Under the pieces are notes generated by a model. That model was not told where the DNA came from. It saw only the letters and a program-made list of their open reading frames with translations, and ran no database searches. DNA of 64,000 nt from Carboxylicivirga linearis (GTDB lineage: Bacteria > Bacteroidota > Bacteroidia > Bacteroidales > Marinilabiliaceae). This document shows positions 599 to 63,100 of the stretch, one piece after another. Every line of letters starts with the position of its first letter. Within the stretch, counting starts at the first letter, position 1. The stretch covers positions 62,001-126,000 of the forward strand of contig NZ_JAGUCO010000011.1 in assembly GCF_018271995.1 (NCBI RefSeq). The letters run 5' to 3'. The translations under genes and the position numbers were made by a program.

Positions 599-606
599 TA
601 CATTTG
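599..606 (+). promoter_or_regulatory. Bacteroidota -7 box (TACATTTG) before the receptor-phytase pair
   Basis: TACATTTG matches the Bacteroidota -7 consensus TAnnTTTG. No good TTG was found at the usual 19-21 base spacing, so the -33 element is weak or absent. The box overlaps a possible TTG start at 604, which argues that translation begins at the ATG at 637. Confidence 0.5.
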
Positions 607-636
607 CGGCAGAATTACTTAAACCTATTAGCAATC

Positions 637-3366: not shown

Positions 3367-3371
3367 TATCT

Positions 3372-8229: not shown

Positions 8230-8323
8230 TGAGAATTTGTGTTAGCTGATTTTATAAAATCAAACATACACCATTCTCTATTTTATGACTACTGCTAATT
8301 TTCCAAATACATGGAAATTTGTA

Positions 8324-9283: not shown

Positions 9284-9414
9284 TCAAAATTAATGGAGTT
9301 TAAGAATATAGAAACTGTTTATTTACATTTTTATAAAATCATGAACCATCAACTTGTCCTTTTGTTGAACTTTCAATTAGTTTTGCAATTAATAAGTAAG
9401 GAGTAGAAGATATA

Positions 9415-10599: not shown

Positions 10600-10606
10600 C
10601 TTATTG

Positions 10607-34562: not shown

Positions 34563-35354
34563 GTCAGCGCGAAGTACAAATTCGCACCAACACTATTAGC
34601 GCAGATTTGTAATCTGTGCTTTTTATTAATCTACTTACTATCACCATTAGCGCGGATTTGTAATCCGCTCTAATGGTGATACTTTATAAAGTATTTATTG
34701 TAAATTTAAACTATGAGCAGAAAATACAAATTCCACAATCCTGATGGTATTTATTTTATAACCTTTGCCGTACAAAATTGGGTAGATGTATTTACGCGCA
34801 ATTCTTATAAGAACATTCTGATTGACAACCTTACATATTGCCAAAAGAACAAAGGCCTTGAATTATTTGCTTGGTGTATAATGACTAATCACGTACACTT
34901 CATTGCCGGATCTAAGGAAGGCTTTCTACTACAAAACATATTACGCGATTATAAAAAATTCACCTCTAAAGCAGTAATATCTGCCATAAGAGAAAACATA
35001 CGAGAAAGCAGGAAAGAATGGCTACTGAAACATTTTATCACAGATAAAGGAATCCGATTCTGGCAAAATCATAATATGCCTATCGAACTCTGGAGTAATA
35101 AAGTAATCGATCAGAAATTAAACTATATCCATCAAAATCCGGTTAAAGCAGGTATAGTATTCAGGGCAGAAGATTATGTCTATAGCAGTGCTGTTGATTA
35201 CAGCGGAAGAAAAGGATTACTGGATATTATAGTTATAAAATAACATGGCGCGAATTACAAATTCGCACCAGCAACGGAAGGCACTATTAGCGCGGATTTG
35301 TAATCCGTGCTTTACTATTTTTACAACCGTCAGCGCGGATTTATAATCCGTGCT
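34563..35354 (+). mobile_element. REPtron: RAYT gene flanked by six REP palindromes
   Basis: Three REP-like palindromes lie on each side of the transposase gene. Upstream they are at 34563-34588, 34595-34620 and 34641-34679. Downstream they are at 35247-35269, 35286-35311 and 35331-35354. The main form is GCGCGGATTTGTAATCCGTG, preceded by TTAG or CAG. Two copies (first and fourth) have the GAA-N-TTC arm variant GCGCGAATTACAAATTCGC. The third copy sits inside a 39-base palindrome (TCACCATTAG...CTAATGGTGA). This is the standard layout in which a RAYT mobilises or maintains REP sequences. Confidence 0.85.
34713..35243 (+). CDS. REP-associated tyrosine transposase (RAYT, Y1_Tnp family)
   Basis: Single-strand-specific Y1 transposase relative of 176 residues. 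It begins MSRKYKFHNPDGIYFITFAV and has the HUH metal-binding motif in CIMTNHVHFIAGS (NHVHF). The probable catalytic Tyr is in the C-terminal helix of LQNILRDYKKFTSK, and the family signature KLNYIHQNPVKAGIV is present. The chain is full length, so it may be active. The REP palindromes on both sides are the expected substrate. RAYTs cut at REP guide-tetranucleotide plus hairpin sites. Here TTAG or CAG before the stem may be the guide. Confidence 0.9.
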   Translation: MSRKYKFHNPDGIYFITFAVQNWVDVFTRNSYKNILIDNLTYCQKNKGLELFAWCIMTNHVHFIAGSKEGFLLQNILRDYKKFTSKAVISAIRENIRESRKEWLLKHFITDKGIRFWQNHNMPIELWSNKVIDQKLNYIHQNPVKAGIVFRAEDYVYSSAVDYSGRKGLLDIIVIK

Positions 35355-35366
35355 TAATACTTTATT

Positions 35367-36698
35367 TTACTTAATCTTTTCCTGAAAATTAACTCCGTAT
35401 TCCTTCAGCTCTTTTAATACAGGCTCGTAAATCTCTTTGATTGTTGGAATATGAACACCCGTGAGTTTGATTTTACCTTCGAGATAAAGTCTTACTGCAA
35501 TAGCCAATGGCAAGCCCACTGTTTTGGCCATGGCTGTTCTGATATTATTTTGCCCTTCCACCACCAGCGACGAAGTCAGACAGGTATCTTTTTCTTCGCC
35601 ATCAACCCGATAAAGAAACTTATGCCACATCACCACCATATCTTTTTCATCAGGTTGAAGCACCCACTTCTCCGTCAATAATTTTTCGAGCACCTGCGCA
35701 GGCGTGGCCTTTTTTAATCCGATGGGTTTATCATTCAGTATCTCGAGCCAATCGAGCTTTTCAATAATATCCGAATCCTGATCGATGTGCATATAATGAT
35801 ACAACTTGGTATCAACCGAATCGGAAGGATGGTAATACAGAAATGAGTTGATGAAATCGCGATATGTCATTCCATCCTTCAGCATCATCTCGTAAGAATC
35901 GTCGGTAATGCCCAGTTGTACAAACACATTCCAGGCACGGCAAAATCCTGGTCGACGCAAAGTACCCCGATAAATAGTTGGTATTCCCTGCAGGTTGTAT
36001 CGTTCGATATACTTAAGCGAATCACGGTTAGCATAGCCTTCAAACTTACCATAGCCTTCAATCTCGATCAGCTCGGTACGACGAAAAAGCCGATTATAAG
36101 GAATGTATTTATATTTTCCTTCCTGAATAAATTTGGCAGTTCCTCCCTGCCCTGCTACCACCACATTGCGCGGATTCCACGAGAACTTATAGTGCCACGG
36201 ATTATTATCTGAATCTGGAGCTACCAGTCCGCCGGTAAACGATTCAAAAGCCTTCAAATCATACCCTTTATCCTTAATCCGGTCCAGTATTTGCATTGCC
36301 GACATATGATCAATACCTGGATCGAGCCCTGTCTCATTTAAAAAGAGTAAACCCTTTTCTTTTACTTCGGGCTCCAGCTTTTTAATCTCCTCCGACTCGT
36401 ACGAAGCTGTAAAAAGTGATTTTCCCTCGTCAACACACACTTTTGCCACCACTGAATGTAATCGGGCAGGCAATAACGAAACCACCACATTACTATTTCT
36501 CACCTCTTTCACCAAACGTGCAGCATCAAATAAATCGAGCCTGATAATATTGGTTTCACTGCTTACTTGGTCGTGAATATGGGAAATATCCTTATCAACT
36601 ACCGTTACTTGCCATTGATTATCCGTTGCATAAGTCTCGAGATAATTAATTAATGCAATAGCCGACCGTCCTGCTCCTATGATAAGTATGTGTTGCAT
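35367..36698 (-). CDS. Saccharopine dehydrogenase (glutamate-forming)-like protein
   Basis: Two-domain NAD(P) enzyme of 443 residues. It opens with the Rossmann motif ILIIGAGRSAIALINYLE and shows NETGLDPGIDHMSAMQILD and FTGGLVAPDSDNNPWHYKFSWNPRNVV, which are signatures of the glutamate-forming saccharopine reductase/dehydrogenase (fungal Lys9, C-terminal half of animal AASS). The reaction converts saccharopine to aminoadipate semialdehyde plus glutamate. Its gene follows the LKR-like gene (12 bases), so both halves of animal-type AASS are encoded side by side as separate genes. It is the last gene of the lysine cluster, ending 12 bases from the REP region. Confidence 0.87.
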   Translation of the reverse strand: MQHILIIGAGRSAIALINYLETYATDNQWQVTVVDKDISHIHDQVSSETNIIRLDLFDAARLVKEVRNSNVVVSLLPARLHSVVAKVCVDEGKSLFTASYESEEIKKLEPEVKEKGLLFLNETGLDPGIDHMSAMQILDRIKDKGYDLKAFESFTGGLVAPDSDNNPWHYKFSWNPRNVVVAGQGGTAKFIQEGKYKYIPYNRLFRRTELIEIEGYGKFEGYANRDSLKYIERYNLQGIPTIYRGTLRRPGFCRAWNVFVQLGITDDSYEMMLKDGMTYRDFINSFLYYHPSDSVDTKLYHYMHIDQDSDIIEKLDWLEILNDKPIGLKKATPAQVLEKLLTEKWVLQPDEKDMVVMWHKFLYRVDGEEKDTCLTSSLVVEGQNNIRTAMAKTVGLPLAIAVRLYLEGKIKLTGVHIPTIKEIYEPVLKELKEYGVNFQEKIK

Positions 36699-36710
36699 AA
36701 TTTAAATTTA

Positions 36711-37931
36711 TTAGGTGTGATGATGTTTCTGCTGCGCTGCAAAACCTTCCAGATACTTAAATCTCTCAGTCAAATCACCGTCTTCTGCAATTGTAGCACG
36801 TTCAATCACTCCTTCCCTGTCGCTCTTAATCACAAAATCAAGAATTCGATTCATTAAATGAGCTCCAAACTCCCGCGAGGCATCTTTGGGTAATTCGTTG
36901 GGAAGATTATCAACTGTCATCATTGTTACATTCCGCTCATCTGAAAAAACAGGTTCCTCAGTCATGGTAAACGGATTAAAGTCATAGATAGGATCACCGA
37001 TTCGGCAGGCTCGTATAGTCGACGGAATGGATCCTCCTATATCACAGGTTATATCTGCAATTACTTTAATTTTAAAATCATCTTGCTGCATATCCGTCAT
37101 TGTAAATAAAACAGGTGCCTGCGGATCCCAAAATGCTGCCGAAATCAGCATATCGGTATGCTTGCAAAAACGCTTAAAGTTGCCTTTATACTCTTTAGGG
37201 TGCTTAAAGAAATGGAATAGATCAAAATCGGCCATGCCTTTATGCAGATTGTATTCTGCAGGAGATAACTGCACATAACAAACCTCATTATATTGGTTAT
37301 TCAAATATTCATCCACAGATAATCTTCTGACGGCAAGCTCCTCCATCACTTCCAACACACCATTGGCCACACGTCCGTTGCCTGTAACCGCTATTTTGAT
37401 GGCAGGCAACTGCACACGTTTCAATTCTTTCATCATCTCAGCTTTATCAGCACATTCGTGAGCAGGTTTAAGATCATAGAAACCGTAGCGTTTACCATAG
37501 GTTAAAAAAGAATTGTAAGCACCCACCAATCCGGCAAACTTGCCAAAACCAATCAGGCGCATCCCTTTCTTATCAGTCAACAGCTCATAATCTATCAGCC
37601 TGATATGTTTTTCTAAAACAGCCTGCAGTAGCTTACGGTTATGTTCTTGCTTTTTAATGGTGTGCGAAAAAAACATGTACGATTTTCCTTCGATGAGAAG
37701 ATCCACAGGAACTTCCTTCACGCCCAAAAAGAAATCGCATGTGCTGATATCGTCTTTTACTGTCACACCCTGTCTGCGGTAATCCTCATCAGTGAAACAA
37801 CGTATCGGACTCGATTCCACTTCAATCTTCAGCTTCGGATACAAATTCAACAACGTCTTGCATTGTTGAGGAGTTAACGGCACCCTTTTATCGGGTGGTA
37901 TCTTTCCTTCTTTCAGAATTCCCAGTTTCAT
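36711..37931 (-). CDS. Lysine-ketoglutarate reductase / saccharopine dehydrogenase (lysine-forming)-like protein
   Basis: The 406-residue protein resembles the N-terminal LKR half of AASS and fungal Lys1, of the alanine dehydrogenase/PNT superfamily. Visible features are LGILKEGKIPPDKRVPLTPQQ at the N-terminus and GVKEVPVDLL. A nucleotide-binding IAVTGNGRVANGVLEVME follows, then DITCDIGGSIPSTIRACRIG near the C-terminus. The reaction joins lysine and 2-oxoglutarate with NAD(P)H to give saccharopine. It is the entry enzyme of the proposed catabolic cluster, with the saccharopine-cleaving enzyme right after it and the semialdehyde dehydrogenase before it. Direction (degradation, not synthesis) is inferred from the ALDH7 partner. 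Confidence 0.85.
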   Translation of the reverse strand: MKLGILKEGKIPPDKRVPLTPQQCKTLLNLYPKLKIEVESSPIRCFTDEDYRRQGVTVKDDISTCDFFLGVKEVPVDLLIEGKSYMFFSHTIKKQEHNRKLLQAVLEKHIRLIDYELLTDKKGMRLIGFGKFAGLVGAYNSFLTYGKRYGFYDLKPAHECADKAEMMKELKRVQLPAIKIAVTGNGRVANGVLEVMEELAVRRLSVDEYLNNQYNEVCYVQLSPAEYNLHKGMADFDLFHFFKHPKEYKGNFKRFCKHTDMLISAAFWDPQAPVLFTMTDMQQDDFKIKVIADITCDIGGSIPSTIRACRIGDPIYDFNPFTMTEEPVFSDERNVTMMTVDNLPNELPKDASREFGAHLMNRILDFVIKSDREGVIERATIAEDGDLTERFKYLEGFAAQQKHHHT

Positions 37932-38099
37932 GATGTGTGTTTTTAATGTTGTTTTTTACATAGTCCGGAGCAATCAGTCCGTAGTCCGTACTATATTCGG
38001 ACTACGAACTCTGGACTTCGAACTTTTAGTCTCTTCTGCTGAAGATTCTTTTTCGGACTTCGAGCTCTGGACTTCGGCCCCTTCTGTCTTCTATCATCT
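37932..38099. repeat. Spacer built from degenerate AGTCCGAAGTCC-type repeats
   Basis: The 168-base gap within the lysine cluster contains several near copies of CGGACTACGAACTCTGGACTTCG and CGGACTTCGAGCTCTGGACTTCG, plus GTCCGTAGTCCG. They include inverted arms. It seems to be non-coding repeat material. Its function is unknown. Confidence 0.6.
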
Positions 38100-39638
38100 T
38101 CAAATCTTAAACTCAATTCCCTGCGCCAAGGGCAGGTCGGTGCTGTAATTAATGGTATTGGTCTGACGACGCATATATGCTTTCCATGCATCAGACCCTG
38201 ATTCGCGACCGCCACCTGTATCTTTCTCACCACCAAAGGCACCGCCAATCTCGGCTCCCGATGTACCTATATTCACATTAGCTATACCACAATCCGATCC
38301 TTCGTGCGATAGGAAGCGTTCTGTTTCCAGCATATTTCTTGAGAAAATAGCTGATGACAAGCCCTGAGGCACATCGTTATGAATAGCTATTGCCTCATCC
38401 ATATCTTTATATTTCAACAAATACAGAAGCGGAGCAAAAGTCTCTTCCTGAACAATCTGATAATGATTTTGCACCTCGGCAATGCAAGGAACCACGTAAC
38501 ATCCCGATTCATATCCCTTGCCACTCAACACTTCGCCTCCATAAAGGATGGCTCCTCCTTCGGCTTTTACTTTTCCGATAGCATCCTGATAAGTCTTAAC
38601 GGCTCCCTTATCAATCATTGGTCCTACCAACGTACTAGAATCAAGCGAATGACCAATGCTGATGCTTTTATACACATTAACCAGCTTCTCTTTCATTGAT
38701 TCATAAACCGATTCGTGAATGATGATTCGGCGTGTTGATGTGCAACGCTGACCGCAGGTACCAACGGCTCCGAAAACAATGGCTCTTAAAGCCATCTCCT
38801 GATCAGCTTCGGGAGTAACAATGATGGCATTATTTCCGCCCAACTCAAGGATGTATTTGCCCAATCGTTCGCCCACCAAACGTCCCACTTTTTTACCGAT
38901 GCGTGTTGATCCTGTGAACGAAATCAGTGGTATATTTCTGTCGCTGAATAATTCATCACCCAGGTATTTCGAACCCGTTGCCACCAGGTTCATCACGCCT
39001 TCCTGAATATTATTTTCTTTCAACACCTTCTGTACAATCTTATGAACCGCTATGGCGCATAACATTACTTTAGATGATGGTTTCCATACCACCACATCAC
39101 CGCAAACCAAAGCGATCATTGCATTCCAGGCCCAAACCGCCACAGGGAAGTTAAATGCCGAAACCACTCCCACTATTCCCATAGGATGATACTGATCGTA
39201 CATGCGGTGTTTAGCCCTCTCTGAGTGCATGGTAAATCCATATAACTGACGCGATTGTCCAACAGCAAAGTCACAGATATCAATCATCTCCTGTACTTCA
39301 CCCAGACCTTCCTGATAGATTTTTCCCATTTCGTACGAAACGAGTTTACCCAAAGCCTCTTTATGCTTTCTGAGTTCCAGCCCTATTTGACGAACCAACT
39401 CACCCCGAACAGGAGCAGGAACCATACGCCAGTCGTTAAAAGCAGTTTTTGCCTTCAGTATCACCTGGTCGTATTCTTCTTTGGTTGCCTGTTTAATACC
39501 TGCTATAGCTTCTCCGTCAGTCGGTGAATAACTGGTAATTAAATCCCCGCTGGTATCGGTCCATTCAGTACCCGTGCATATACCGTTGTTTATTTTATCT
39601 ATTCCTAGTTCCTTTAGTGCTTCTTTAATTCCGTACAT
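38100..39638 (-). CDS. ALDH7-family (antiquitin-like) aminoadipate-semialdehyde dehydrogenase
   Basis: NAD+-dependent aldehyde dehydrogenase of 512 residues. The catalytic Cys299 lies in AVGTCGQRCTSTRR and the general base Glu265 in ILELGGNNAIIV; SFTGSTRIGKKVG forms the NAD site. The GQRCTSTRR context and the C-terminal GGEKDTGGGRESGSD motif point to ALDH7A1/antiquitin, which oxidises L-aminoadipate semialdehyde (in equilibrium with piperideine-6-carboxylate) to aminoadipate. It lies between the aconitase-family and LKR-like genes, so it should complete lysine to aminoadipate. Family assignment is strong, substrate likely. Confidence 0.9.
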   Translation of the reverse strand: MYGIKEALKELGIDKINNGICTGTEWTDTSGDLITSYSPTDGEAIAGIKQATKEEYDQVILKAKTAFNDWRMVPAPVRGELVRQIGLELRKHKEALGKLVSYEMGKIYQEGLGEVQEMIDICDFAVGQSRQLYGFTMHSERAKHRMYDQYHPMGIVGVVSAFNFPVAVWAWNAMIALVCGDVVVWKPSSKVMLCAIAVHKIVQKVLKENNIQEGVMNLVATGSKYLGDELFSDRNIPLISFTGSTRIGKKVGRLVGERLGKYILELGGNNAIIVTPEADQEMALRAIVFGAVGTCGQRCTSTRRIIIHESVYESMKEKLVNVYKSISIGHSLDSSTLVGPMIDKGAVKTYQDAIGKVKAEGGAILYGGEVLSGKGYESGCYVVPCIAEVQNHYQIVQEETFAPLLYLLKYKDMDEAIAIHNDVPQGLSSAIFSRNMLETERFLSHEGSDCGIANVNIGTSGAEIGGAFGGEKDTGGGRESGSDAWKAYMRRQTNTINYSTDLPLAQGIEFKI

Positions 39639-39649
39639 CTTTCTATGTT

Positions 39650-41443
39650 TTATATTTTTTGATTTTTAATATCTATTTCACTTAAAGTCTTTACCAAACC
39701 TCCTTTGTTTAGTATTTCCATCAGTTTATCAGGTAACGGTGTAAATACAAATTCATTATTACCTACCATCACTTTGCCTTCTTTGAAATTTACATTTACC
39801 ACATCCCCTTTTTGATAAGCCTCTACTGCTTCAGGCAATACAATAATGGGTAAGCCCTGATTAACAGCTGAGCGGAAGAAGATACGCGACACCGACTTCA
39901 CCAGAATGGCTTTTACGCCCACATATCTCAAACCAACTGAAGGATGCTCGCGCGAGCTGCCACAACCGAAGTTGGCTCCGCACACCATAATATCGCCTTC
40001 GTGAACAGATGCAGCAAATGACTGATCAAAGTCCCTGAACAGATAAGGAGCAATCTTGTCTGGCTCCGAACTGTTTATCTCATAAGTGAGGCTGCCAGCA
40101 AACATTTGGTCAGTATTCAGGTTATCAGCATCCTGATAAGCCCACACACCATTGATTCTCCGCTGATCACCCTTTTTTATTTCTACTGTAGGAGTTTTCT
40201 TTTTCTCGTATGAGAATTTATGATTCTTCTTGCTCATGGGTGATAAAATTCGCCCGTGAATGGCCGATAACGCAACTGTTGCAGGTGATGCCAGATAGAT
40301 CGAAGCATTCTTGTTTCCCATTCGTCCCAGGAAGTTTCGGTTTGCCGTGCTGATGACGGTAACATCATCGGCTGGAATGCCCTGTCCGGTTCCCAGACAC
40401 GGTCCGCACGACGCCGCCAAAACACTTGCTCCAGCTTCCATAAAAATATCAATCAGCCCTTCTTTATTGGCTTGTCGGTATATTTCTTTCGAAGCAGGCG
40501 TAATCAATAACTGAAAACCATCAGGCACAATTTGTCCTTTCAGAATAGCGGCTGCTTCTCGTAAATCCTCAATACGACCGTTGGTGCATGTTCCGATCAA
40601 TGCCTGTTGAACCTCAGTACCTGCTACCTCATCCACACTTTTTATATTATCCACATGATGAGGGCAAGCCACAACAGGAAACAATTCATCCAGTTGAAGA
40701 GTAATTTCTCTGGCATAGATGGCGTCTTTATCTGCCCAAACTCCTTCGCATTCTTCATTCAGATGCTTTGCCAATACCTCATCATAAGGAAAAACAGCAT
40801 TCTTGGCACCCATCTCCGATGCCAGATTAGCAATGGTCATTCTGTCGGCAATACTCAGGTTTTTAACTCCGTCGCCATGATATTCAACCGACATATAATC
40901 AGCCCCTGCTGCACCTATCATACCAATAATATATAGAGCCACATCTTTGGCAAAAACACCTTGTGGAAGCATACCATTTAGGGTGATTTTTAACGTTTCA
41001 GGCACTCTGAACCAGGTCTCTCCCTGCTTCCACAAACCAGCAGCTTCTGTCCGATCGATTCCTGCGGCAAAAGCATTGAAAGCACCAGCCGTACAGGTAT
41101 GACTATCGCTTCCTACAATACACATCCCCGGTTTGGCATACTCCGCCATCACCTGATGACAAATACCATTTCCCACATCGTGGAAACACTTTACCCGTTG
41201 TTTATAAGCAAAAGTTCGGATCTGCTGATAATCGTTTGCCAGCTTGGCATTGGTTGGGGGCGCATTATGATCGAGAACCACCATCAACTGATTACGATCC
41301 TTCAAGGCTGAACCTCCCATCTTACGAAAGATCTTTTCGATGGCAGCCGTATTATCGTGAGACAACACAATATCAGGCTTCTTAAAAACGATAGCCCCTT
41401 GTGGTGCATCAAATATCTTTTCAACAAACGTTTTTCCTGACAT
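39650..41443 (-). CDS. Aconitase-superfamily hydro-lyase, large and small domains fused (homoaconitase-like candidate 1)
   Basis: The 597-residue protein is LeuC-like with Fe-S ligands in GTCTNGR and SCGPCLGTG, the DSHTCTAGAF motif, and a C-terminal LeuD-like swivelling domain with FGCGSSREHPSVGL. The fused order large-small resembles bacterial LeuCD-type or archaeal homoaconitase chains more than the classical four-domain aconitase of about 900 residues. In the small domain the substrate-loop motif DADNLNTDQMFAGSLTY does not match the YLxx loops I remember for IPM isomerase or homoaconitase. It is likely one of two isomerases that process C6/C7 tricarboxylates in this cluster. Confidence 0.85.
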   Translation of the reverse strand: MSGKTFVEKIFDAPQGAIVFKKPDIVLSHDNTAAIEKIFRKMGGSALKDRNQLMVVLDHNAPPTNAKLANDYQQIRTFAYKQRVKCFHDVGNGICHQVMAEYAKPGMCIVGSDSHTCTAGAFNAFAAGIDRTEAAGLWKQGETWFRVPETLKITLNGMLPQGVFAKDVALYIIGMIGAAGADYMSVEYHGDGVKNLSIADRMTIANLASEMGAKNAVFPYDEVLAKHLNEECEGVWADKDAIYAREITLQLDELFPVVACPHHVDNIKSVDEVAGTEVQQALIGTCTNGRIEDLREAAAILKGQIVPDGFQLLITPASKEIYRQANKEGLIDIFMEAGASVLAASCGPCLGTGQGIPADDVTVISTANRNFLGRMGNKNASIYLASPATVALSAIHGRILSPMSKKNHKFSYEKKKTPTVEIKKGDQRRINGVWAYQDADNLNTDQMFAGSLTYEINSSEPDKIAPYLFRDFDQSFAASVHEGDIMVCGANFGCGSSREHPSVGLRYVGVKAILVKSVSRIFFRSAVNQGLPIIVLPEAVEAYQKGDVVNVNFKEGKVMVGNNEFVFTPLPDKLMEILNKGGLVKTLSEIDIKNQKI

Positions 41444-41498
41444 ACCTTTAAGCTTATGGCTTATAGCTAATAGCTTTCAGCTGATTATTAATATATTT

Positions 41499-43310
41499 CT
41501 ATCTGCTTATTGCCAGCAGATCTCCTTTCTGATAAATCTTCATCTGCACTTCCGAGAAAGGATGAATCATCAAATTCTTGTTATTTCTCAGATTGGTTAT
41601 CCTTCCTTTTTGCAAATCAATTCTGATCGTGTCCCTGTTTTCCAGATCCAGTTCTGACAGATCATTATAAGTTAAAATGGGAAAGCCGGCATTTATGGCG
41701 TTTCGCTCGTAGATGGCTCCGAATGACTTTGCCAGAATACATAAATTACCCAGCGACTTAAAGCAATCAACCGCCTGTTGACGTGAGCTTCCCGCACCAA
41801 AATTCTTTCCCGTAATAACGATGTCACCATGTTCTGATTTACTTGCATAATCTTCCCAACCTTTCAGGTTATCAAAAGTGTATTGACCCATCTGACTGAT
41901 ATCGGTTATAGCCAGATAACGATTATGGAAAATCATATCAGTATCGATATTGTCTTCATCAACCAGCCAAACCTTACCTTCCAGCACCATAGGTTTTTCT
42001 TCTTCTTTCTCCTCCCTTACCTTGATTTGATATTTTAATTCTGATGATGGCTTAAAAACACTGGGATCAGCTGGCAATGCTTCAGGCGTTGTTATATGAC
42101 CTGCAACAGCCGAGGCCGCAGCAACAGCTGGCGATGACAGATACACTTCACCCTTTCCTTGTTTACCTTCAAAATTGCGATTACCAGTGCTGACTGTTTT
42201 TTCGCCCGGTCCGTTTTGCCCTATCTGCCCGCTGGCGCAGCCTGCACAGCCTGCATTTCCTAATAAAGCACCTGATTCTTTGAAAATCTTGATCAAACCT
42301 TCTTCCATACAGGCATTCCAAATCTCGTCGGTGGATGGCACAATCTTCAGCACAATGCCAGGAGCCACTTTTTTACCATTCAAGATTCTAGCCACTGTGC
42401 GCATGTCCTCCATTCGTCCATTGGTACAACTTCCGATAAAAACCGAGTCTATCTTGGTGCCCTGAACTTCTGTAACAGGAACCACATCATGAGGCTTACC
42501 GGGCAAAGCTATTGCCTGATAGAATTCAGATACATCTATTTTTTCAATTAGTTTGTATTCTGCATCTTCATCAGCAAAAACAGGACTTACAGGTCTACTG
42601 CATCGTTCTTTTGTATATTCAATCACCTTATCCGATGGAGAAAAGAAAATGGCAATTGCTCCCATTTCTGTTGCCATGGATGAGATAGTCACTCTCTCAT
42701 CCAAAGTGAGTTGATCAGCCACTTTTCCAACCAACTCAACAGACAAACCGAGTAACGAATTAGCTCCAAAATGATGAAGCAGATTCAGAACGATATCCTT
42801 TGCTGAGATATTGGAAGGTCTTCTGCCTGTCAATTCAATTTTAGCTGATTCGGGAACCTTAAACCAAACAGCTCCCCTCGCCCATGCGGCAGCAATATCC
42901 CTATCGCCCATGCCCTGACCAAAGGCGCCGATTGCCCCCAGAATATTTGCATGCGAATCGGTTGACACAACAGTGGAACCTGGCGTGGCCATACCTTTAT
43001 CAATTGCCAGGTGTGTTCCAATACCACTGTTAATGTCATAAACACCCACCCTTTCCTCGCGCGCATACTGACGACACAACTGTTGATTGGCAGCATATTT
43101 CTGATCTGAACCTGTTGGATTACAATCAAAAGTGAAAAATGTCTTTTTCGGATCAGCCAGACGCAGTCCGTTATCCTGAAGATTCTTAACCACATTTGCT
43201 CCTCCAAAATCTCGTGCCAGACGAACATCAATATCAATATCAACAATGTCTCCAGGTTTAACCGAAGTCAAGTTGGCATGATTGGCTAATATTTTTTCTA
43301 TGAGAGTCAT
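41499..43310 (-). CDS. Aconitase-superfamily hydro-lyase, large and small domains fused (homoaconitase-like candidate 2)
   Basis: Second fused LeuC/LeuD-like protein, 603 residues. Fe-S ligands lie in GSCTNGR and GCAGCASGQ. VSTDSHANILGAIGAFGQG and NAGFPILTYND are typical of the fold. The small domain reads DNIDTDMIFHNRYLAI and FGAGSSRQQAVDC, so the residue pattern around the active site differs from its neighbour (SSRQQ against SSREH). The two are not recent duplicates: they differ at many conserved positions. Needing two specialised aconitases fits the known split of homocitrate to homoaconitate to homoisocitrate between two enzymes in fungi. Confidence 0.85.
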   Translation of the reverse strand: MTLIEKILANHANLTSVKPGDIVDIDIDVRLARDFGGANVVKNLQDNGLRLADPKKTFFTFDCNPTGSDQKYAANQQLCRQYAREERVGVYDINSGIGTHLAIDKGMATPGSTVVSTDSHANILGAIGAFGQGMGDRDIAAAWARGAVWFKVPESAKIELTGRRPSNISAKDIVLNLLHHFGANSLLGLSVELVGKVADQLTLDERVTISSMATEMGAIAIFFSPSDKVIEYTKERCSRPVSPVFADEDAEYKLIEKIDVSEFYQAIALPGKPHDVVPVTEVQGTKIDSVFIGSCTNGRMEDMRTVARILNGKKVAPGIVLKIVPSTDEIWNACMEEGLIKIFKESGALLGNAGCAGCASGQIGQNGPGEKTVSTGNRNFEGKQGKGEVYLSSPAVAAASAVAGHITTPEALPADPSVFKPSSELKYQIKVREEKEEEKPMVLEGKVWLVDEDNIDTDMIFHNRYLAITDISQMGQYTFDNLKGWEDYASKSEHGDIVITGKNFGAGSSRQQAVDCFKSLGNLCILAKSFGAIYERNAINAGFPILTYNDLSELDLENRDTIRIDLQKGRITNLRNNKNLMIHPFSEVQMKIYQKGDLLAISR

Positions 43311-43394
43311 TTGAAATGGTTAATTATTAGTTGGTAATTGTAAATTCATTCACATCCTTCATTAATAATTGATAATTTATCATTAACAATTAGC

Positions 43395-43949
43395 TTATTT
43401 TAATCTGCTCTTAAATGGAAGAAAGGTCATAAAATCAGCATGGTGAACAACGTAAGCTTCTGTTGAACGCTTCACCATATCTCCTTCGCCTGCATGCGTA
43501 GCAATGATATGACACACCTCGGGCGGCACCTTGCATTCCTCAGCCAATGAAACACCTGAAAACGGATGACGCAGGTATTTTCCATACATACCCTGAACAG
43601 CTTTTCCGTTTTCATCCAGTTCATACTCCAACAGTTTGCCCACATCAGCCAATATTGCACCAGCTACCAACACATCCATATCAACGGGTAATTCATCTTT
43701 AAAGAATTCGTTCATCTTTAAGCCACTTTCGTAGGCGATATGAACCACGACTCTTTTATGATCCATAAAACTGACTTTTAAATCGGGTCCACATAGAAGA
43801 GTAAATGGAATATTATTCAGATCATCAGTTTTTAAAACACTACGTTCCAAAGTCAATTCCCAAGTTCGGGCCACTTGATAGCGCAACACTTCATTGTTAA
43901 TCCAATTTAACTCAGGCCAAAGCTTTATCACTTCTTTAAAATTATCCAT
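43395..43949 (-). CDS. HD-superfamily-like protein lacking the HD histidine
   Basis: The 184-residue protein looks like a small HD-domain protein with HPFSG, IIATHAGEGD and VHHADFMTFLPF. At the place where the family has HDIGK, this one has ILADVGKLLE: Ala replaces the metal-binding His. It sits between the isocitrate dehydrogenase-like and aconitase-like genes on the same strand, spaced by 15 and 84 bases. I can only call it a member of the lysine cluster of unknown function. It may be a degenerate, regulatory or substrate-binding relative. Confidence 0.72.
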   Translation of the reverse strand: MDNFKEVIKLWPELNWINNEVLRYQVARTWELTLERSVLKTDDLNNIPFTLLCGPDLKVSFMDHKRVVVHIAYESGLKMNEFFKDELPVDMDVLVAGAILADVGKLLEYELDENGKAVQGMYGKYLRHPFSGVSLAEECKVPPEVCHIIATHAGEGDMVKRSTEAYVVHHADFMTFLPFKSRLK

Positions 43950-43964
43950 TGCATCTTTTTTAAA

Positions 43965-45158
43965 TCATAATCGGGCAATAATGGCATCAGTCATTTGTTC
44001 GGTTGTGGCAGCTCCTTTTTCAATCACATCGGGTCGTCCTGCCATCTTAAGCATATCGTAAGTCCGCACCTTACCGTCCTCAATCACTGCTGCTACAGCT
44101 TTACGTATTTTTTGAGCCATCTCATTTTCATCGATATAATCAAGCATCATACAAGCCGATTCAATCATTGCAATCGGGTTGACAATTGAATTCTCATAAC
44201 TGGCATATTTAGGAGCTGAGCCATGTGTAGGTTCAAAAACAGCCACTCCGCTTTCGCCCATCTGAGCGCTACACGCAAAGCCCAAACCACCAATCAAACC
44301 AGCAAATCCATCAGAAAGAATATCGCCAAACATATTACCAGCCACCATCACTCCGTAGGTCTCAGGATTTTTGGTTAACCACATCATCTGCGCATCAATA
44401 TTGGTATTCCATAATTCAATTTCAGGATAGTCATTCTTTTGAAGTTGTTGAGCCATTTTGTACATCATGCCTGATGTTTCGCGTATTACATTAGGTTTTT
44501 CACAAACCGTGACCGATTTATAACCATATTTTCGTGCATGATTAAAAGCCGCCCGAAGAATTCGTTCTGTGGCGTGTTTGGTGAAAATCCTTGTTGATAC
44601 CGATAATTCCTCTTTAGGCACATCTCCAAAATTCTTCACAAACTGTGGATGCGTCATCAAAGCATCGTATACAATTCCGTCGGGAGAACTCCATTCCACA
44701 CCGCCATACAATCCTTCGGTATTCTGACGAAAAATAGGAACATCCACCATTGGTTCTTCCACCTCACCATTAGCTCCTCTTCGGATAAAATTCAGCGGAT
44801 TACCTTTATAAGTCTTGCAAGGACGCAGACAAATATCCATTTTAAAATGTTGACGAAGGGCCACAATCGGACTTTTATAAACCAAACCTTTGCCCTGCAA
44901 TTCAGCACTCAATTCGGCACTGGCTTCATCCTTGGGTTTAGAGGTAATGGCTCCGAACAAACCTATTTTATGTTTTTCAAGAAGTTGAATGGTTCTTTCA
45001 GGCAGAGGATTACCCTCGTTACACCAAAACTCCCAGCCAATATCGCCTTCCACATAATCAGCTTCGAAGCCAGCCGCATCTATAACTCTTATGGCCTGAT
45101 CCAAAACAATACGCCCGATTCCGTCGCCTGGCATTGTAACTATTGTTCGTTTTTTCAT
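43965..45158 (-). CDS. Isocitrate/isopropylmalate/homoisocitrate dehydrogenase family protein
   Basis: Beta-decarboxylating dehydrogenase of 397 residues with TMPGDGIGR, the substrate segment SPIVALRQHFKMDICLRPCKTYKG, PIFRQNTEGLYGG, DILSDGFAGLIGGLGFA and FEPTHGSAPKYA. In E. coli isocitrate dehydrogenase the segment reads S-x-N with Ser113 and Asn115. Here Ser96 is followed by Pro and Ile, so Asn115 is replaced, which weakens an isocitrate assignment. The gene sits between citrate-lyase-type and aconitase-type genes in a lysine cluster. My best guess is homoisocitrate dehydrogenase working in the carboxylating direction on 2-oxoadipate. NAD or NADP preference is undetermined. Confidence 0.8.
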   Translation of the reverse strand: MKKRTIVTMPGDGIGRIVLDQAIRVIDAAGFEADYVEGDIGWEFWCNEGNPLPERTIQLLEKHKIGLFGAITSKPKDEASAELSAELQGKGLVYKSPIVALRQHFKMDICLRPCKTYKGNPLNFIRRGANGEVEEPMVDVPIFRQNTEGLYGGVEWSSPDGIVYDALMTHPQFVKNFGDVPKEELSVSTRIFTKHATERILRAAFNHARKYGYKSVTVCEKPNVIRETSGMMYKMAQQLQKNDYPEIELWNTNIDAQMMWLTKNPETYGVMVAGNMFGDILSDGFAGLIGGLGFACSAQMGESGVAVFEPTHGSAPKYASYENSIVNPIAMIESACMMLDYIDENEMAQKIRKAVAAVIEDGKVRTYDMLKMAGRPDVIEKGAATTEQMTDAIIARL

Positions 45159-45303
45159 AATATGGATTGTTAGACTTATTTTACAATCGTTGTCCTCTAG
45201 CCGGACAGGCTTTTGGCTGCGCCGATTTTCAATTCATTTTTGTCTTGACACAAAAACGAAACAAAAAAGTCAAGGCTGCCTTTAAAAAGCAATGGATTTA
45301 ATA

Positions 45304-46863
45304 TTATTCATCAGCCACTTGCCGGACCACGTCTATCACCGTTCCATCTACCCATTTAATAGCTGCCACAATTTTATCTTTGGGCGCAGGACGCTCAGGC
45401 TTACCACATATATGTTCTGCTTCCTCTTTTAGTTGATGAATGGTTTTTATCGGTAATCCTGAACCTTTAGCTTTCTCAATCAGATCGGTTTTGAGCGGAT
45501 TAATGGCAATACCTCTTTCTGTTACAATCACATCGATGAGTTCACCTGGTCCGCAAAGCGTTGTTACTTCATCCACAACAACAGGAATACGATCACGGAA
45601 CAATGGCAACGGAAGAATCACTGTCTTCGAAAACAAACAGTTTTGCCATCCGCCGATTCCGTGCATCAGGTAACCATCAGAATGAGTTACCACATTTGCA
45701 TTGAAATTGACATCCACCTCGGTAGCACCCAGGATAACAACATCAACCATTCCTGCAAAATTTCCCTTGCCATGATAGTTATAACTGGTAAAAGGACTTG
45801 TCCATACATGATTGGGATTTTCGCGCATCGATCGGACTCCTTCTAAATCAAAAGTCTGTCCGTCGAGAATATACTCTACCAAACCTTCTTCCAAAAGATT
45901 AACCAGGTATTGATTACTTCCTCCTCGGGCAAAACGAGCTTTTATTCCCTTCCTCCGTATGATATCACCAAAGAAAATTCCGATTGACAGAGAGGTTCCT
46001 CCCGCCCCTGCCTGAAACGAGAAGCCATCATGAATAATACCTGTTACCTCACAAAATTTAGCTGTCATTTCGGCAATCAAAAGTCTATCAGGGCTTTTGG
46101 TGACCTGTGTGGTTCCTGACACAATTTTTTCAGGAATTCCCACCTTATCAACCAAAACTGTGTAATCCACATAATTTCCCTGTATCTGCCATGGAACGCA
46201 AGGAAAAGGAACCAAAGTATCGGTTACCACAATCACCTTATCGGCATATTGCGAATCGGCAAGAGCAAATCCCAGCAATCCGCTGTTTGACTCGCCACTG
46301 ATACCATTGGCATTGCCAAAAGCATCAGCACAAGAGGCCGCTATCACTGCAATATCTATCTTCACATCTCCATCCTGCACCGCCTGGTAACGACCTCCGT
46401 GAGAACGTAAAACAGCTATTTTCGACATTTTACCTTCGCTGCAAAACTTGCCCAACGGTCCGTTCATACTACCTTCAATATGACTGATAGTTCCATCCTC
46501 GAGATAAGGAATCAAATGAGCATGGCAAGGAAAAGATGCCGAAGGAAACCAGCGAAGATTTTTAGCTCCCATCTGCTTTGCTACATCAAATACCCTATTG
46601 GCAACCAAATCACCATTACGAAAATGATGATGAGTAGAAATGGTCATTCCGTCTTTTAAACCAGCCTTTTGCAAGGCTTCTTTCAAATCGCTCACCTGCT
46701 TGTTTCCATCCGACGAAAAGTCAGCGCAGGAAGAAATCTTCGGAGCCATTTTATTTCCCGAAGGCTTATATCTCCCCACTCCCATAAAAGGAAATACTTT
46801 CTCACCGTTTATGGTTTCAGGCACCCAACGACCTCCTGCATTTTTTATTAATTTATCAGACAT
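45304..46863 (-). CDS. Citrate lyase alpha-subunit family protein (CitF-like CoA/ACP transferase)
   Basis: Of the CitF family, whose members exchange the acetyl on the lyase for citrate to form citryl thioester. The start is the ATG at 46863 (MSDKLIKNAGGRWVPE); it overlaps the previous stop by 8 bases (ATGTCTGA), with GGAGG 8 bases upstream. A longer frame from 46929 adds an unlikely N-terminus. Motifs visible are MTISTHHHFRNGDLVAN, IEGSMNGPLG, LRSHGGRYQAVQDGD, FQAGAGGTSLSIG and MHGIGGWQNCLFSKTVILPLPLFRDRIP. Length of about 519 is typical. With the CitE-like protein it could act on homocitrate. Confidence 0.88.
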   Translation of the reverse strand: MSDKLIKNAGGRWVPETINGEKVFPFMGVGRYKPSGNKMAPKISSCADFSSDGNKQVSDLKEALQKAGLKDGMTISTHHHFRNGDLVANRVFDVAKQMGAKNLRWFPSASFPCHAHLIPYLEDGTISHIEGSMNGPLGKFCSEGKMSKIAVLRSHGGRYQAVQDGDVKIDIAVIAASCADAFGNANGISGESNSGLLGFALADSQYADKVIVVTDTLVPFPCVPWQIQGNYVDYTVLVDKVGIPEKIVSGTTQVTKSPDRLLIAEMTAKFCEVTGIIHDGFSFQAGAGGTSLSIGIFFGDIIRRKGIKARFARGGSNQYLVNLLEEGLVEYILDGQTFDLEGVRSMRENPNHVWTSPFTSYNYHGKGNFAGMVDVVILGATEVDVNFNANVVTHSDGYLMHGIGGWQNCLFSKTVILPLPLFRDRIPVVVDEVTTLCGPGELIDVIVTERGIAINPLKTDLIEKAKGSGLPIKTIHQLKEEAEHICGKPERPAPKDKIVAAIKWVDGTVIDVVRQVADE

Positions 46864-48169
46864 ACACATTCCTCCAATCTTTTGCCAGCTGACCTGTAGA
46901 AATGGCCATATCAATAAGATTTTGCGCACGTTTTACAACGGGAGGATCAATCATCTTTGAACCCAAAGCCACTACTCCACTTCCATTCTCCAAAGCAATA
47001 AGAAAGGCGTTAACTATCTTTTTTGCTTTCTCAATTTCAGTTTCATTGGGAGCATATCCCTGATTGATATAAATAATCTGGCGTGGATGAATGCAGCCCA
47101 TCCCAGTAAATCCGAGGGATTTGGATTCAGTCACATTTCTGCTTAAAGCATCCATATCCTCTATATCGGAGAAAACAGAATCGATTGCTTGCTTCCCGGC
47201 GGCTTTAGCTGCATTAACAATGGTAGAGCGGGCAAAAAACGATTCTTTGGCTTTGTTAGTACGTTGAGCTCCTATATCAGCGGTATAATCTTCCAAACCA
47301 ATGGCAATAGCCACCACATTTTCTGATGCTGATGCAATCGCATATGCATTTTGCACTCCCAAAGCACTTTCAATTATCGGCATCAAATGAATCGGAAAAT
47401 CTTTATCCTTTTTTACCTGCTGAATTCTTTCCTCAACATGATGGACATCTTCAGCACTTTCGCATTTAGGGATTAAAATCAGATTCACTCCTTCCCTGGC
47501 AATCCAATCCAGATCATCCAAACCTAAAGGCAGTTGATTAATACGAACCATACGTTCAGCCCCATAGAAATTAACTAACCTTAAAGCATTCCTTACTAAT
47601 ATTCGGGCTTCATCTTTTTTATCAGGAGCCACACTGTCTTCCAGATCCAGAATTATACCATCAGCCCCGTAAATACCTGCATTGAGCATTAACTTAGGAT
47701 TATTTCCGGGCAGGTATAATCGAGAACGACGAATACGATCAGGAGATGTGGCCTTTTTATTAAATTCTTCGAGATTGGTGAGATATGTTTTATCGGTGAT
47801 GATAAGCTGATGAACGACAGCCTCAATGCGGGCTGCAATCACAAAAGGAAGAGCTCCTTTATCATCAATGGTAAGAACAGCATGCTTAATGCTGAAATAC
47901 TGCAAAACCACGAGGCTCAGTTTACTTATTTGATTACCGTAAAGCTTATCGACTTTGCTTTTTACATTTACAATTATCCCGCCGCTCTCTTTAAGTTCGA
48001 GATTCACAAAACAATCAGAACGAACTGCATCACCTTTATTTCCTGCATGTGCAACCATAGTGATTTTCTTTATAAATTTGCCATCTACAGGACCGATCTC
48101 TCGGTCACCAATCAACGAAACATCCTTTCCCAAATTCAGCTTCAACAAAAAAATGACCTTAAAATTCAA
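46856..48169 (-). CDS. Citrate lyase beta-family protein fused to a CitD-like N-terminal domain
   Basis: The C-terminal 300 residues are CitE/HpcH-aldolase-like: RRSRLYLPGNNPKLM, DGIILDLEDSVAP, MVRINQLPLG, LILIPKCESAEDV, PIIESALGVQNAYAIA, AIGLEDYTADIGAQRT and GMGCIHPRQI. The N-terminal 110 residues align with the acyl carrier protein CitD (VKSKVDKLYGNQI and LTIDDKGALPFVIAARIEAV). The GTLESGD site whose Ser carries the phosphoribosyl-dephospho-CoA is not recognisable; nearest are NKGD and RSDC. The first codon is unclear: the frame opens at a TTG (48169), but a possible promoter there (TTG, 19 bases, TAACATTTG) would favour a later start, such as the TTG at 48145 or ATG at 48058. First gene of the lysine cluster. 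Confidence 0.8.
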   Translation of the reverse strand: MNFKVIFLLKLNLGKDVSLIGDREIGPVDGKFIKKITMVAHAGNKGDAVRSDCFVNLELKESGGIIVNVKSKVDKLYGNQISKLSLVVLQYFSIKHAVLTIDDKGALPFVIAARIEAVVHQLIITDKTYLTNLEEFNKKATSPDRIRRSRLYLPGNNPKLMLNAGIYGADGIILDLEDSVAPDKKDEARILVRNALRLVNFYGAERMVRINQLPLGLDDLDWIAREGVNLILIPKCESAEDVHHVEERIQQVKKDKDFPIHLMPIIESALGVQNAYAIASASENVVAIAIGLEDYTADIGAQRTNKAKESFFARSTIVNAAKAAGKQAIDSVFSDIEDMDALSRNVTESKSLGFTGMGCIHPRQIIYINQGYAPNETEIEKAKKIVNAFLIALENGSGVVALGSKMIDPPVVKRAQNLIDMAISTGQLAKDWRNVYV

Positions 48170-60102: not shown

Positions 60103-63100
60103 ATGCGTAATTTATCCGCCACCCCAAGGCTGGGTATCCTTTTTTTGATGCTACTATTTATGGGATCATTATCTGGATATAGCCAAATTAAAATTAATGA
60201 GTTCGTATCCTCTAATGTTACGGGTCAAACAGATGATGATGGAGACTACCCGGATTGGATTGAACTTTACAACACTTCTTCTTCATCCATTAATCTATCG
60301 GGCTACTCATTAACAGATGATCTTTCCGACACACTTAAATGGCAGTTACCATCCACACAATTATCAGGGCAATCGCATATGCTAATTTTTGCATCTGGTA
60401 AAAATCGTACCGATTTAGTAACAGAGTGGTATACCGTTATTGACCAAGGTGATGATTTCCAGTATCTGGTTCCAAGTCAACAGCCTGAGACCTCATGGAA
60501 TAGTTTAAATTTTGATGACACCTCATGGTCCAGTGGTCCAAGTGGTATAGGATATGGCGATAACGATGATGCTACAGTGATAGAAACAGCGATGAGTGTT
60601 TTTGTTCGAACAAAATTTACTGTTGACGACTTAGCTAATGTTGCACAAGTAGTGCTGCACATGGATTATGATGATGGTTTTGTAGCATACATTAATGGTT
60701 TTGAAATAGCACGGGATAATTTGGGCACACCAGGAACTACGGTTACCTATAATCAGGCTGCAGACACATACGATCATGAAGCTCAGATTTATCAAGGACT
60801 TCCTCCAAATGAATTTCAATTACTTACCTGGGAAGACATTCTGCAGGAAGGTGAAAATGTATTGGCTATACAGGTTCACAACCACAGCCTTACCTCTTCA
60901 GATATAACCTGTATTCCTTTTCTAACTTTAGGATTAAAAACATCTCAAGGGCATACTGCATCAGAGATTCTTGATCTACCTACATCATATCTTCATACCA
61001 ATTTTAAAATCAAAGCTGACGGAGAGTCTATCTATCTATTCAACAACAAATCGTTTGTTGACTCTGTTGGTGCCACCAGGCTAAATGCCGATATCTCTTA
61101 CGGACGAATAACGGATGGCAATAGCCAATGGGTATATTTTGATTCTCCAACACCTTCAGCAGCCAATGCAGGCAACTACTCAACCACACTGACAACTGAT
61201 TCGGTTAAGTTTTCTGTTGAAGGAGGAAAACACACTTCAACCGTTTCATTAACACTATCAAATCCTAATAACGCTTCATCTAGTATCTACTATACAACCG
61301 ATGGATCAATCCCAACCACTTCGAGTAACTTATATAGCTCTGCTATTTCAGTAAGTTCAACAAGTGCTATCAGGGCACGTGTGATTGACGCAGGAAAACT
61401 GGCCGGACCTGTAGTATCCAACACTTATATTATTGGACAGTCACACGATCTACCAGTTATTTGTTTATCTACCGATCCTGATAATTTATGGGATTATTAT
61501 ACCGGAATCTATGTAAAAGGCCCCAATGCGCAATCATCCGATCCTTATTTTGGAGCCAACTTCTGGATGGATTGGGAAAAACCGGTTCATTTCGAATTTT
61601 ACGACACCAATAATGTTAAGCAAATTGATCAAGGGGCAGGAGTTAAAATATATGGAGCGTGGACAAGAGCTTATCCGCAAAAGTCAATGGCACTATTTGC
61701 CCGCAAAGAATATGGCGACGGATCATTCTGCTATAAGTTTTTCGAGAGTAGAGACAACGACAAGTTCGAAGCCTTAATCCTACGTAATTCAGGGAACGAT
61801 TTCTATTATACTCACCTTCGCGATGGTGTAGTAAATCATATGATGAAACCATTACAATTAGAGAGTCAGGCTTTCCAGCCAACCGTTGTTTATATCAACG
61901 GTGAGTATTTTGGAATATTAAATCTGCGAGAAAAAATCAATGAACATTTCATTTCAGATAATACATACATTAAATCTGACAGTGTAAATATTCTAGAACT
62001 GAATGGAGACGTAGTTAATGGTAACAATAACAAATATCAGGAATTTCTCAATTTCATTTCTAATGCAAACCTTAGCACCAATGCGAATTATGAGAAGGTA
62101 AAAGAATATATTGACATTGAGAATTACATTGATTATGTACTGGCCCAAACCTACATAGATAATACAGACTGGCCGGGCAATAACATAAAGTTCTGGAATA
62201 CCACAAGTAATAAAAGTCGTTTCCGTTGGATTTTGTACGATACTGACTTTGGATTTAGCTTATATGGTAATTCAAACTACACATACAACACCCTTTCATA
62301 TGCTTTGGGTAATATAGGCGATTTTCAAAATCCTGCATGGTCTACTTTGGTATTCCGAAAATTAAAAACCAACAGTCAATTTAGAGAAGAATTTGTTAAA
62401 AGAGCCAAGCATTACCTGAATACTTGCTGGAAACCAAGTGTGGTGAATGCCAAAGTTGATTCAATTAAACAGATCTATAGCAGCGAAATAAACCAGCATA
62501 ATAATAGGTGGAATTTCAGCTATAGCGGTTGGAATAGCGAGGTTGAAAAATTAAAAACATTTGCCAATAACCGACCTTATCATTTCGAAAATCATTTAAG
62601 AGATTTATTTGGTTTTACTCAAAAGTCTTTGGTTAATCTTGATGCCAATGGAAATATGGGATATATAAAGGTAAATCAAAGAAACATTAAGAGCTTCCCA
62701 TATAGTGACGACTATTACATTAACTCTGAAATTGAATTAATTGCAGTTCCTAATCCCGGATATCGATTTGTAAAATGGACGGGTGACTATACTTCTGAAA
62801 TCAGCAAAATATCACCCAATTTATCGGGTTCTCTAAACCTAACAGCTGAATTTGAAGCTGCCACGGATAACGACGTTAAAGTAATATTTAATGAAGTATT
62901 CTATAAATCATCACCTGACATAAAACCAGGTGATTGGGTAGAATTGTACAACGCCGGAGCAACAAGTGTTGACTTATTAAACTGGGCTTTTAATGATACA
63001 CAAAGAGATTCTTCATTATATATCGATAAATCAATTATACTGGCACCCGATCAGTATATTGTGTTGTGTAAAGATTTAGAAAAATTCAAAACGACTTATC

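Follow-up and report, generated by a model that had tools for sequence, protein, structure and literature searches.

A nine-gene cluster of Carboxylicivirga linearis that probably encodes lysine breakdown through a reversed aminoadipate pathway

Why do genes resembling those of citrate lyase, isocitrate dehydrogenase and aconitase stand in one row with genes of lysine breakdown in Carboxylicivirga linearis? The row comprises nine minus-strand open reading frames (ORFs), all free of internal stops, at positions 35367-48169 of the window, by which we mean the whole stretch of 64,000 nucleotides that was analysed (G000:C22:62001-126000; the source genome, G000, is 6.05 Mb long). In the order of transcription, the ORFs encode a CitE-like lyase, a CitF-like transferase, a dehydrogenase of the iso/homoisocitrate family, an HD-domain protein, two aconitase-family enzymes (AcnA1 and AcnA2), ALDH7, lysine-2-oxoglutarate reductase (LKR) and saccharopine dehydrogenase (SDH). 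The six genes from CitE to AcnA2 behave as a module and are so called below, and ALDH7, LKR and SDH are referred to as the trio. We consider it probable that the cluster encodes an oxygen-independent lysine catabolism via a reversed aminoadipate pathway. This reading, put forward in a first-pass annotation of the DNA, is supported at the sequence level by the co-occurrence of the module with LKR, by the presence of HglS in congeners, by the residues of the module enzymes and by a separate citrate operon in the source genome.

In the proposed pathway, LKR, SDH and ALDH7 would convert lysine to 2-aminoadipate, and an aminotransferase coded elsewhere would convert the latter to 2-oxoadipate. The dehydrogenase, using NADPH, would then join 2-oxoadipate and CO2 to homoisocitrate, which AcnA2 and AcnA1 would take through homoaconitate to homocitrate; CitF would move coenzyme A (CoA) from acetyl-CoA onto homocitrate, and CitE would cleave homocitryl-CoA to 2-oxoglutarate and acetyl-CoA. 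The net reaction would be lysine + 2-oxoglutarate + CO2 + H2O -> 2 glutamate + acetate, an equation of the first-pass annotation that balances in C, H, N and O on recalculation. It would be redox-neutral, with one NAD(P)H used by LKR and, putatively, one by the carboxylase, and one made each by SDH and ALDH7. Carbons 1 and 2 of lysine would end up in the acetate, and the CO2 would become the C-1 carboxyl of 2-oxoglutarate. What we infer in this scheme is on which substrates the six module enzymes act, in which direction the pathway runs, that the thioester is one of CoA, how the two aconitase-family enzymes divide their work, that an aminotransferase takes part, and any role of the HD protein.

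Gene identities and conserved gene order

Of the trio, ALDH7 (38100..39638) scores 811 bits against NF050084, above its cut-off of 730, as an L-piperidine-6-carboxylate (P6C) / aminoadipate semialdehyde dehydrogenase. Among solved structures, LKR (36711..37931), the saccharopine-forming enzyme, is best matched by the LKR portion of human aminoadipic semialdehyde synthase (AASS; 8dda, E 8.7e-41), and SDH (35367..36698; PF16653, 266 bits), the glutamate-forming enzyme, by the SDH portion of the same protein (5l78, E 4.5e-66). With AASS homology of both LKR and SDH and the P6C dehydrogenase equivalog cut-off passed, the three genes have the marks of the saccharopine pathway and are clearly predicted to encode the enzymes from lysine to aminoadipate, in agreement with the first-pass annotation. 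The same annotation had listed the nine genes with their families and order, and both the intact ORFs and the concordant Pfam and NCBIfam matches bear this out. A minor correction concerns CitE: the longest ORF begins with TTG at 48169, and a start at 48058, which gives a protein of 401 aa, a length like that of its relatives, is more likely. CitE and CitF overlap by 14 bases (CitF from 46869), and the other neighbours lie 11 to 168 bases apart.

Is this arrangement peculiar to the window? An AcnA2 alignment was run against named genomes; at least 580 relatives were confirmed, and the best 80 loci were taken. Nine of these 80 carry the full nine-gene order (L061-L064, L066, L067, L084, L117 and L131), including Prolixibacter denitrificans DSM 27267 (L064), Marinilabiliaceae bacterium A049 (L061) and an uncultured Carboxylicivirga (L066). 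Three of the nine are again contigs of G006, G004 and G032, genomes in which the nine genes had been found in the same order; in G022, eight of them are visible before the sequence taken breaks off, and L088 has eight up to the contig end. Counting the window, there are ten distinct complete clusters, and with the order kept at identities down to about 50%, the shared arrangement is far beyond chance.

In all, the complete clusters included, 26 of the 80 best loci carry AcnA2 together with one or more of the remaining eight genes. The locus labelled TA06 (L069) reads CitE-CitF-dehydrogenase-HD-AcnA1-AcnA2; in a locus labelled Cloacimonadota (L121), an LKR-family gene (32% identical) directly precedes CitE, and an SDH-family gene follows about 6.5 kb after AcnA2. 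At L092 and L114, ALDH7 is followed by SDH without LKR between them. Families of the order other than that of the window carry the module in pieces on different contigs, namely, as the pairs CitE-CitF, dehydrogenase-HD and AcnA1-AcnA2 or as smaller fragments. The trio also occurs by itself: in G001 and G002, ALDH7-LKR-SDH has the DUF3078 and MscS neighbours that it has in the window (the pirin gene of the window was also found at the G001 trio, and was not found at that of G002), while the CitF, AcnA2 and dehydrogenase queries did not find the module either at the locus or in the rest of these two genomes. Thus, module and trio are separable.

Two further arrangements were seen within the order. 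LKR-family genes without an adjoining SDH occur in several families (L042, L057 and L058), and tandem module-type CitF genes, 78% and 66% identical to that of the window, occur at G125:C9:16369-20044 and G278:C9:1001541-1004832; such pairs suggest a second substrate.

Do module and lysine genes tend to occur in the same genomes? This was assessed for LKR in an order-wide sample of 247 genomes, each at least 90% complete, with an LKR threshold of E <= 1e-40. Module-type CitF was found in 98 genomes, LKR in 135 and AcnA2 orthologs in 97, and module CitF and AcnA2 were found together in 94. The CitF count leaves out four genomes whose sole CitF is canonical (G050, G113, G201 and G273), and the AcnA2 count leaves out eight AcnA1-like or 45-46% matches (G047, G082, G106, G107, G186, G212, G134 and G218). 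According to the first-pass annotation, the pathway idea would fail if the set were common without lysine genes; for LKR, the opposite pattern emerged, with LKR in 93 of the 98 genomes harboring module CitF versus 42 of the 149 without it. The best CitF and LKR matches lie on separate contigs in 88 of the 93 (some assemblies are fragmented), the exceptions being G000, G210, G225, G252 and G266. LKR falls into two subfamilies, one present in 52 module genomes and the other in 41, and each is strongly associated with module CitF when the other is excluded.

Citrate or homocitrate as the substrate

The family names of the module enzymes point to a different explanation, namely, that the module is a citrate/isocitrate system (a branch of the reductive tricarboxylic acid cycle or citrate fermentation) merely adjoining the lysine genes and perhaps recycling 2-oxoglutarate. 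CitF (45304..46869; PF04223, 464 bits) scores 516.9 bits against the citrate lyase alpha equivalog TIGR01584, above the cut-off of 501.45. CitE (46856..48058) combines a lyase domain (PF03328, 190 bits) with a degenerate N-terminal CitD domain resembling acyl carrier protein (ACP) (PF06857, 56 bits) and is homologous to citrate lyase CitE, although its 275.6 bits fall under the citE equivalog cut-off of 443.4. As the canonical CitE of the source genome also stays below this cut-off (338.3 bits), we dropped the value as an argument against citrate lyase. This explanation also draws on a relative (G047) in which dehydrogenase, HD and AcnA1 are the sole matches of their kinds, and on the source genome itself, where the module dehydrogenase used as a query retrieved no other isocitrate dehydrogenase, only a leuB-type gene on C93, although a distant or monomeric type would escape such a query.

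Several observations speak against a citrate substrate, and together with the strong module-LKR co-occurrence they make this explanation unlikely. The source genome encodes a second, canonical citrate lyase operon (L059, G000:C91:68500-88400, positions 7160-12110) with CitE, CitF, a CitX-CitG fusion of 468 aa and CitC, as well as a separate AcnA-type aconitase; therefore, ordinary citrate metabolism would be independent of the cluster. Module CitF is 40% identical to the CitF of that operon. The distribution of CitG is exact: among a set of 60 relatives, it was found in 16, the very genomes with a 40-43% CitF, and among the 247 genomes of the order it was found in 11, exactly those with a ~40% (canonical) CitF. 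Conversely, CitG was absent from 91 of the 98 module-CitF genomes of the order and from 6 of the 11 in the 60-relative set. Searches (tblastn) over the loci taken, E. coli being left out, with CitXG and CitC of the source genome and CitG, CitX and CitC of E. coli as queries matched only the canonical operons L059 and L144. Canonical citrate fermentation was demoted on account of the second operon and this exact CitG distribution.

The carrier domain of CitE points in the same direction. The Ser of 'ESGD' in E. coli CitD, which we take to be the attachment site of the prosthetic group (phosphoribosyl-dephospho-CoA), aligns with Arg in 11/11 module CitEs, and an R-S-D motif, with a Ser one residue on from the Arg, is present in 18/18 distinct ones. 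Attachment at this neighbouring Ser by another route is conceivable, and the product of CitG should be unavailable in module genomes that lack the gene. Judged by these features, the CitE/CitF pair is not an ordinary citrate lyase. Because its ACP-like domain has no carrier serine, the lyase probably acts on thioesters of CoA, and we infer that CitF is a homocitrate:acetyl-CoA CoA-transferase and CitE a homocitryl-CoA lyase. The lysis of homocitrate foreseen in the first-pass annotation is thereby supported, and its form may be refined to that of CoA thioesters. Like citrate lyase (CitDEF), the module has adjacent CitF and CitE homologs, a CitD-like domain and, as proposed, the same transfer-then-cleave chemistry; unlike citrate lyase, it has the CitD-like domain fused to CitE and devoid of the carrier serine, would not need CitG and would act on homocitrate.

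Does the dehydrogenase (43965..45158, PF00180) retain the substrate contacts of isocitrate dehydrogenase? Compared with E. coli Icd, whose catalytic, substrate and NADP residues are taken here with the roles we assume for them, it keeps all eight catalytic residues compared. Ser113 is kept and Asn115 is replaced by Ile in 11/11 sequences; both residues presumably contact the gamma-carboxylate of the substrate, and the contact set of isocitrate dehydrogenase is thus incomplete. The resulting 'SPIV' motif is present in 25/25 sequences and is unlike the isocitrate dehydrogenases compared, of which 6lky and 6ltf keep the Asn, in a comparison at Asn115 that took in no homoisocitrate dehydrogenase sequence. 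The loss of the isocitrate Asn in 11/11 is a further point against the citrate/isocitrate explanation. The NADP residues K344, Y345, V351 and Y391 are kept in 11/11, with Lys for R395, and E. coli LeuB has none of these four. This is an NADP-type pocket, and NADPH use fits the carboxylating direction; we propose that the enzyme is an NADPH-dependent 2-oxoadipate carboxylase, that is, a homoisocitrate dehydrogenase acting in reverse. The AlphaFold model of the dehydrogenase was poor (mean pLDDT, the predicted local distance difference test, 61.6) and was not used.

The HD gene (43395..43949; HD/HDIG, PF01966 and TIGR00277) follows the dehydrogenase gene on the same strand in 29/29 loci containing both (25 without repeats); in two of these loci, a single ORF intervenes. 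L116 has the HD gene without the dehydrogenase in the stretch taken. The His of the HD doublet is replaced by Ala, Cys or Ile in 25/26 proteins, the exception, with HD retained, being the distant L069 copy. The protein model (pLDDT 86.5) matches generic HD folds only, and our guess is that the protein assists or regulates carboxylation.

Both aconitase-family enzymes have fused large and small domains. AcnA1 (41499..43310), of the isopropylmalate/citramalate isomerase (IPMI) or homoaconitase (HACN) type, exceeds the PRK00402 cut-off (418.8 bits versus 385), and AcnA2 (39650..41443), of the homoaconitase family, exceeds those of hacA_fam (471.6 versus 385.7), IPMI_arch and PRK00402. Against solved relatives, a profile of 10 AcnA2 orthologs scores 410 bits with the HACN large subunit 4kp2, 398 with IPMI and 195 with mitochondrial aconitase, and a profile of 13 AcnA1 orthologs scores 327 bits with IPMI, 293 with HACN and 133 with mitochondrial aconitase. 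Three Cys, which we take to be the iron-sulfur cluster ligands of the homoaconitase/IPMI family, are invariant in the alignments of 10 and 13 sequences, as befits members of this family. In fungi, according to a passage of PMC3556520, homoaconitase handles only the homoaconitate-homoisocitrate step, and an aconitase-type enzyme performs the homocitrate-homoaconitate step. Given this division, a pair of such enzymes is to be expected for homocitrate, whereas two aconitases would be superfluous for citrate, which also counts against a citrate/isocitrate module. We propose that AcnA1 and AcnA2 would each serve one half of the homoisocitrate-homoaconitate-homocitrate steps.

Could the same enzymes serve both kinds of acids? 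One set of bifunctional enzymes acting on citrate/isocitrate and on the homologous C7 acids might be used for glutamate synthesis as well as for lysine breakdown. Such an arrangement would suit the retained Ser113 and NADP pocket of isocitrate dehydrogenase and the partial set kept by G047, and a passage of PMC3556520 describes yeast Aco1p as accepting both aconitate and homoaconitate. The separate aconitase and citrate lyase of the source genome and the lost Asn115 argue the other way, and we regard bifunctionality as doubtful, slightly more so than a pure citrate/isocitrate system.

HglS in congeners and the direction of the pathway

If the module acts on 2-oxoadipate, what occupies this position in relatives without it? 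The source genus was sampled with 14 genomes (G000-G013). Module and trio are present together in three (G000, G004 and G006), the trio alone in two (G001 and G002), and LKR and a close ALDH7 are both missing from three (G005, G007 and G010). In the remaining six (G003, G008, G009, G011, G012 and G013), HglS (E <= 1.4e-48) adjoins a paralog of ALDH7 that is 56-59% identical. HglS is thus found in 6 of the 8 module-free genomes of the genus with a close ALDH7, G001 and G002 being the other two. In these six congeners, neither LKR nor the module (CitF, AcnA2 and dehydrogenase queries) was found, and none of the 14 genomes unites module and trio with the SDH-HglS-ALDH7 set. In 5/5 neighbourhoods read, HglS stands between an SDH-family gene and ALDH7 (L146:8191-11895, with an SDH-family protein of 355 aa, and the equivalents L147-L150); the SDH-family gene is 78-79% conserved between congeners. 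The set may constitute a route to 2-hydroxyglutarate by way of lysine 6-dehydrogenase.

A passage of PMC7286885 describes the conversion of 2-oxoadipate by HglS as Fe(II)- and O2-dependent. As HglS acts on 2-oxoadipate, the module would stand at the position of HglS, after aminoadipate. The two solutions share this position and an adjoining ALDH7 gene; they differ in that HglS is a single O2-dependent enzyme leading to 2-hydroxyglutarate, whereas the module would be a multi-enzyme, O2-independent and CO2-fixing system. A short gene of the HglS family (DUF1338, 268 aa) was observed in the source genome itself (L164:9019-9822), beside genes that look to us like those of a phosphotransacetylase and an acyl kinase. 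DUF1338 proteins are suggested, in a passage of PMC7286885, to share one reaction, from which it follows that the source organism may own the aerobic branch too. Strict mutual exclusion of the module and all HglS-family genes was dropped as a claim, given the DUF1338/HglS relatives in module genomes.

The congeners also bear on the direction of the pathway. The enzyme families overlap with those of aminoadipate biosynthesis, and the cluster might in principle make lysine by the forward pathway, with CitE/CitF as homocitrate synthase. Citrate lyase, however, is not a synthase, and ALDH7 is a dehydrogenase that works without ATP activation; there is no homocitrate synthase in the cluster (the lysine synthesis genes of the genome were not searched for), and the HglS and ALDH7 paralog of six congeners constitute a degradative set. 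Forward synthesis was rejected on the last two grounds and is very improbable. With the alpha-aminoadipate lysine synthesis of fungi and Thermus, the degradative pathway proposed here would nevertheless share the intermediates homocitrate, homoaconitate, homoisocitrate, 2-oxoadipate, aminoadipate and saccharopine. HACN-family enzymes, the dehydrogenase superfamily and, as in fungi according to a passage of PMC3556520, the use of two aconitase-family enzymes are likewise common to both; the module would run in reverse, with CitE/CitF in place of homocitrate synthase and ALDH7 in place of aminoadipate reductase.

The weight of the evidence and its meaning

A number of observations weigh against the reversed aminoadipate pathway. 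The Fisher p of 4e-28 for the overall association ignores phylogeny, and five of the 98 module genomes have no detected LKR (G057, G074, G082, G084 and G154). Of the 60 relatives, G049 and G051 possess the module and LKR but no close ALDH7; LKR, a close ALDH7 and the module dehydrogenase are all missing from G057; and in G048 (79% complete), CitE, CitF and AcnA1 are accompanied by neither AcnA2 nor the module dehydrogenase. G047 (99% complete) has only dehydrogenase-HD-AcnA1 of the module and no other aconitase-family match, beside a distant LKR-SDH pair, and its dehydrogenase and AcnA1 could serve citrate and isocitrate there. AcnA2 is alone in the stretch taken in 54 of the 80 best loci, many of them short contigs. 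At the level of individual enzymes, the best NCBIfam models of the dehydrogenase are the methanogen homoisocitrate dehydrogenases AksF2/AksF, with about half their cut-offs reached, and the loop of the small domain, YLAIT in AcnA1 and SLTYE in AcnA2, is neither that of HACN (YLRT, 2pkp) nor that of IPMI (YLVY); such loops were set aside as uninformative for specificity. No dedicated aminotransferase was identified, and no genome-wide search for one was made. Finally, a weaker DUF1338 match above the Pfam cut-off is present in 12 further genomes of the 60, including the source genome and two without LKR or a close ALDH7 (G005 and G010). The shorter DUF1338 gene also occurs in the other four module genomes of the source family among the 60, and two AcnA2 loci contain HglS relatives: in a Lentimicrobiaceae genome, the relative (33%; L073:11870-12649) is the immediate neighbour of AcnA2, on the other strand, and L110 contains a second one (38%; L110:4572-5279).

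Around the cluster, the window holds an ORF of the IS200-like (Y1_Tnp) transposase family at the downstream edge (34713-35243), a TonB-dependent receptor gene followed directly by a phytase-family gene (604-4580), and a gene for a protein of 1181 aa with CotH kinase, lamin-tail and Por-secretion-tail domains (60103-63648).

Has such a pathway been described? The first-pass annotation knew of no bacterial pathway of this form, and in the open-access literature we likewise found no description of one or of a homocitrate lyase. In mammals, 2-oxoadipate is decarboxylated to glutaryl-CoA, one of the two known ends of the saccharopine route, the other being 2-hydroxyglutarate, which requires O2. The cluster shares with mammalian and plant saccharopine degradation the enzymes LKR, SDH and ALDH7 to aminoadipate, followed by 2-oxoadipate; here, 2-oxoadipate would instead be carboxylated. 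In plants, it is acted upon by the O2-dependent HglS, according to a passage of PMC7286885. We lean, with somewhat less assurance than for the cluster itself, towards a broader view: an undescribed O2-independent, CO2-fixing lysine pathway, a reversed aminoadipate route ending in an ACP-free homocitryl-CoA lyase, would be present in ~40% of the sampled genomes of the order (98/247) and in Cloacimonadota-labelled records, standing where the O2-dependent HglS stands in aerobic relatives.

If this holds true, a CO2-fixing, O2-free end of lysine breakdown would explain the use of lysine by many sediment and digester Bacteroidales, and a homocitrate lyase activity would be added to enzymology. It would also mean that a biosynthetic pathway is run in reverse as catabolism, and that the annotations 'citrate lyase', 'aconitase' and 'isocitrate dehydrogenase' would be corrected in hundreds of genomes.

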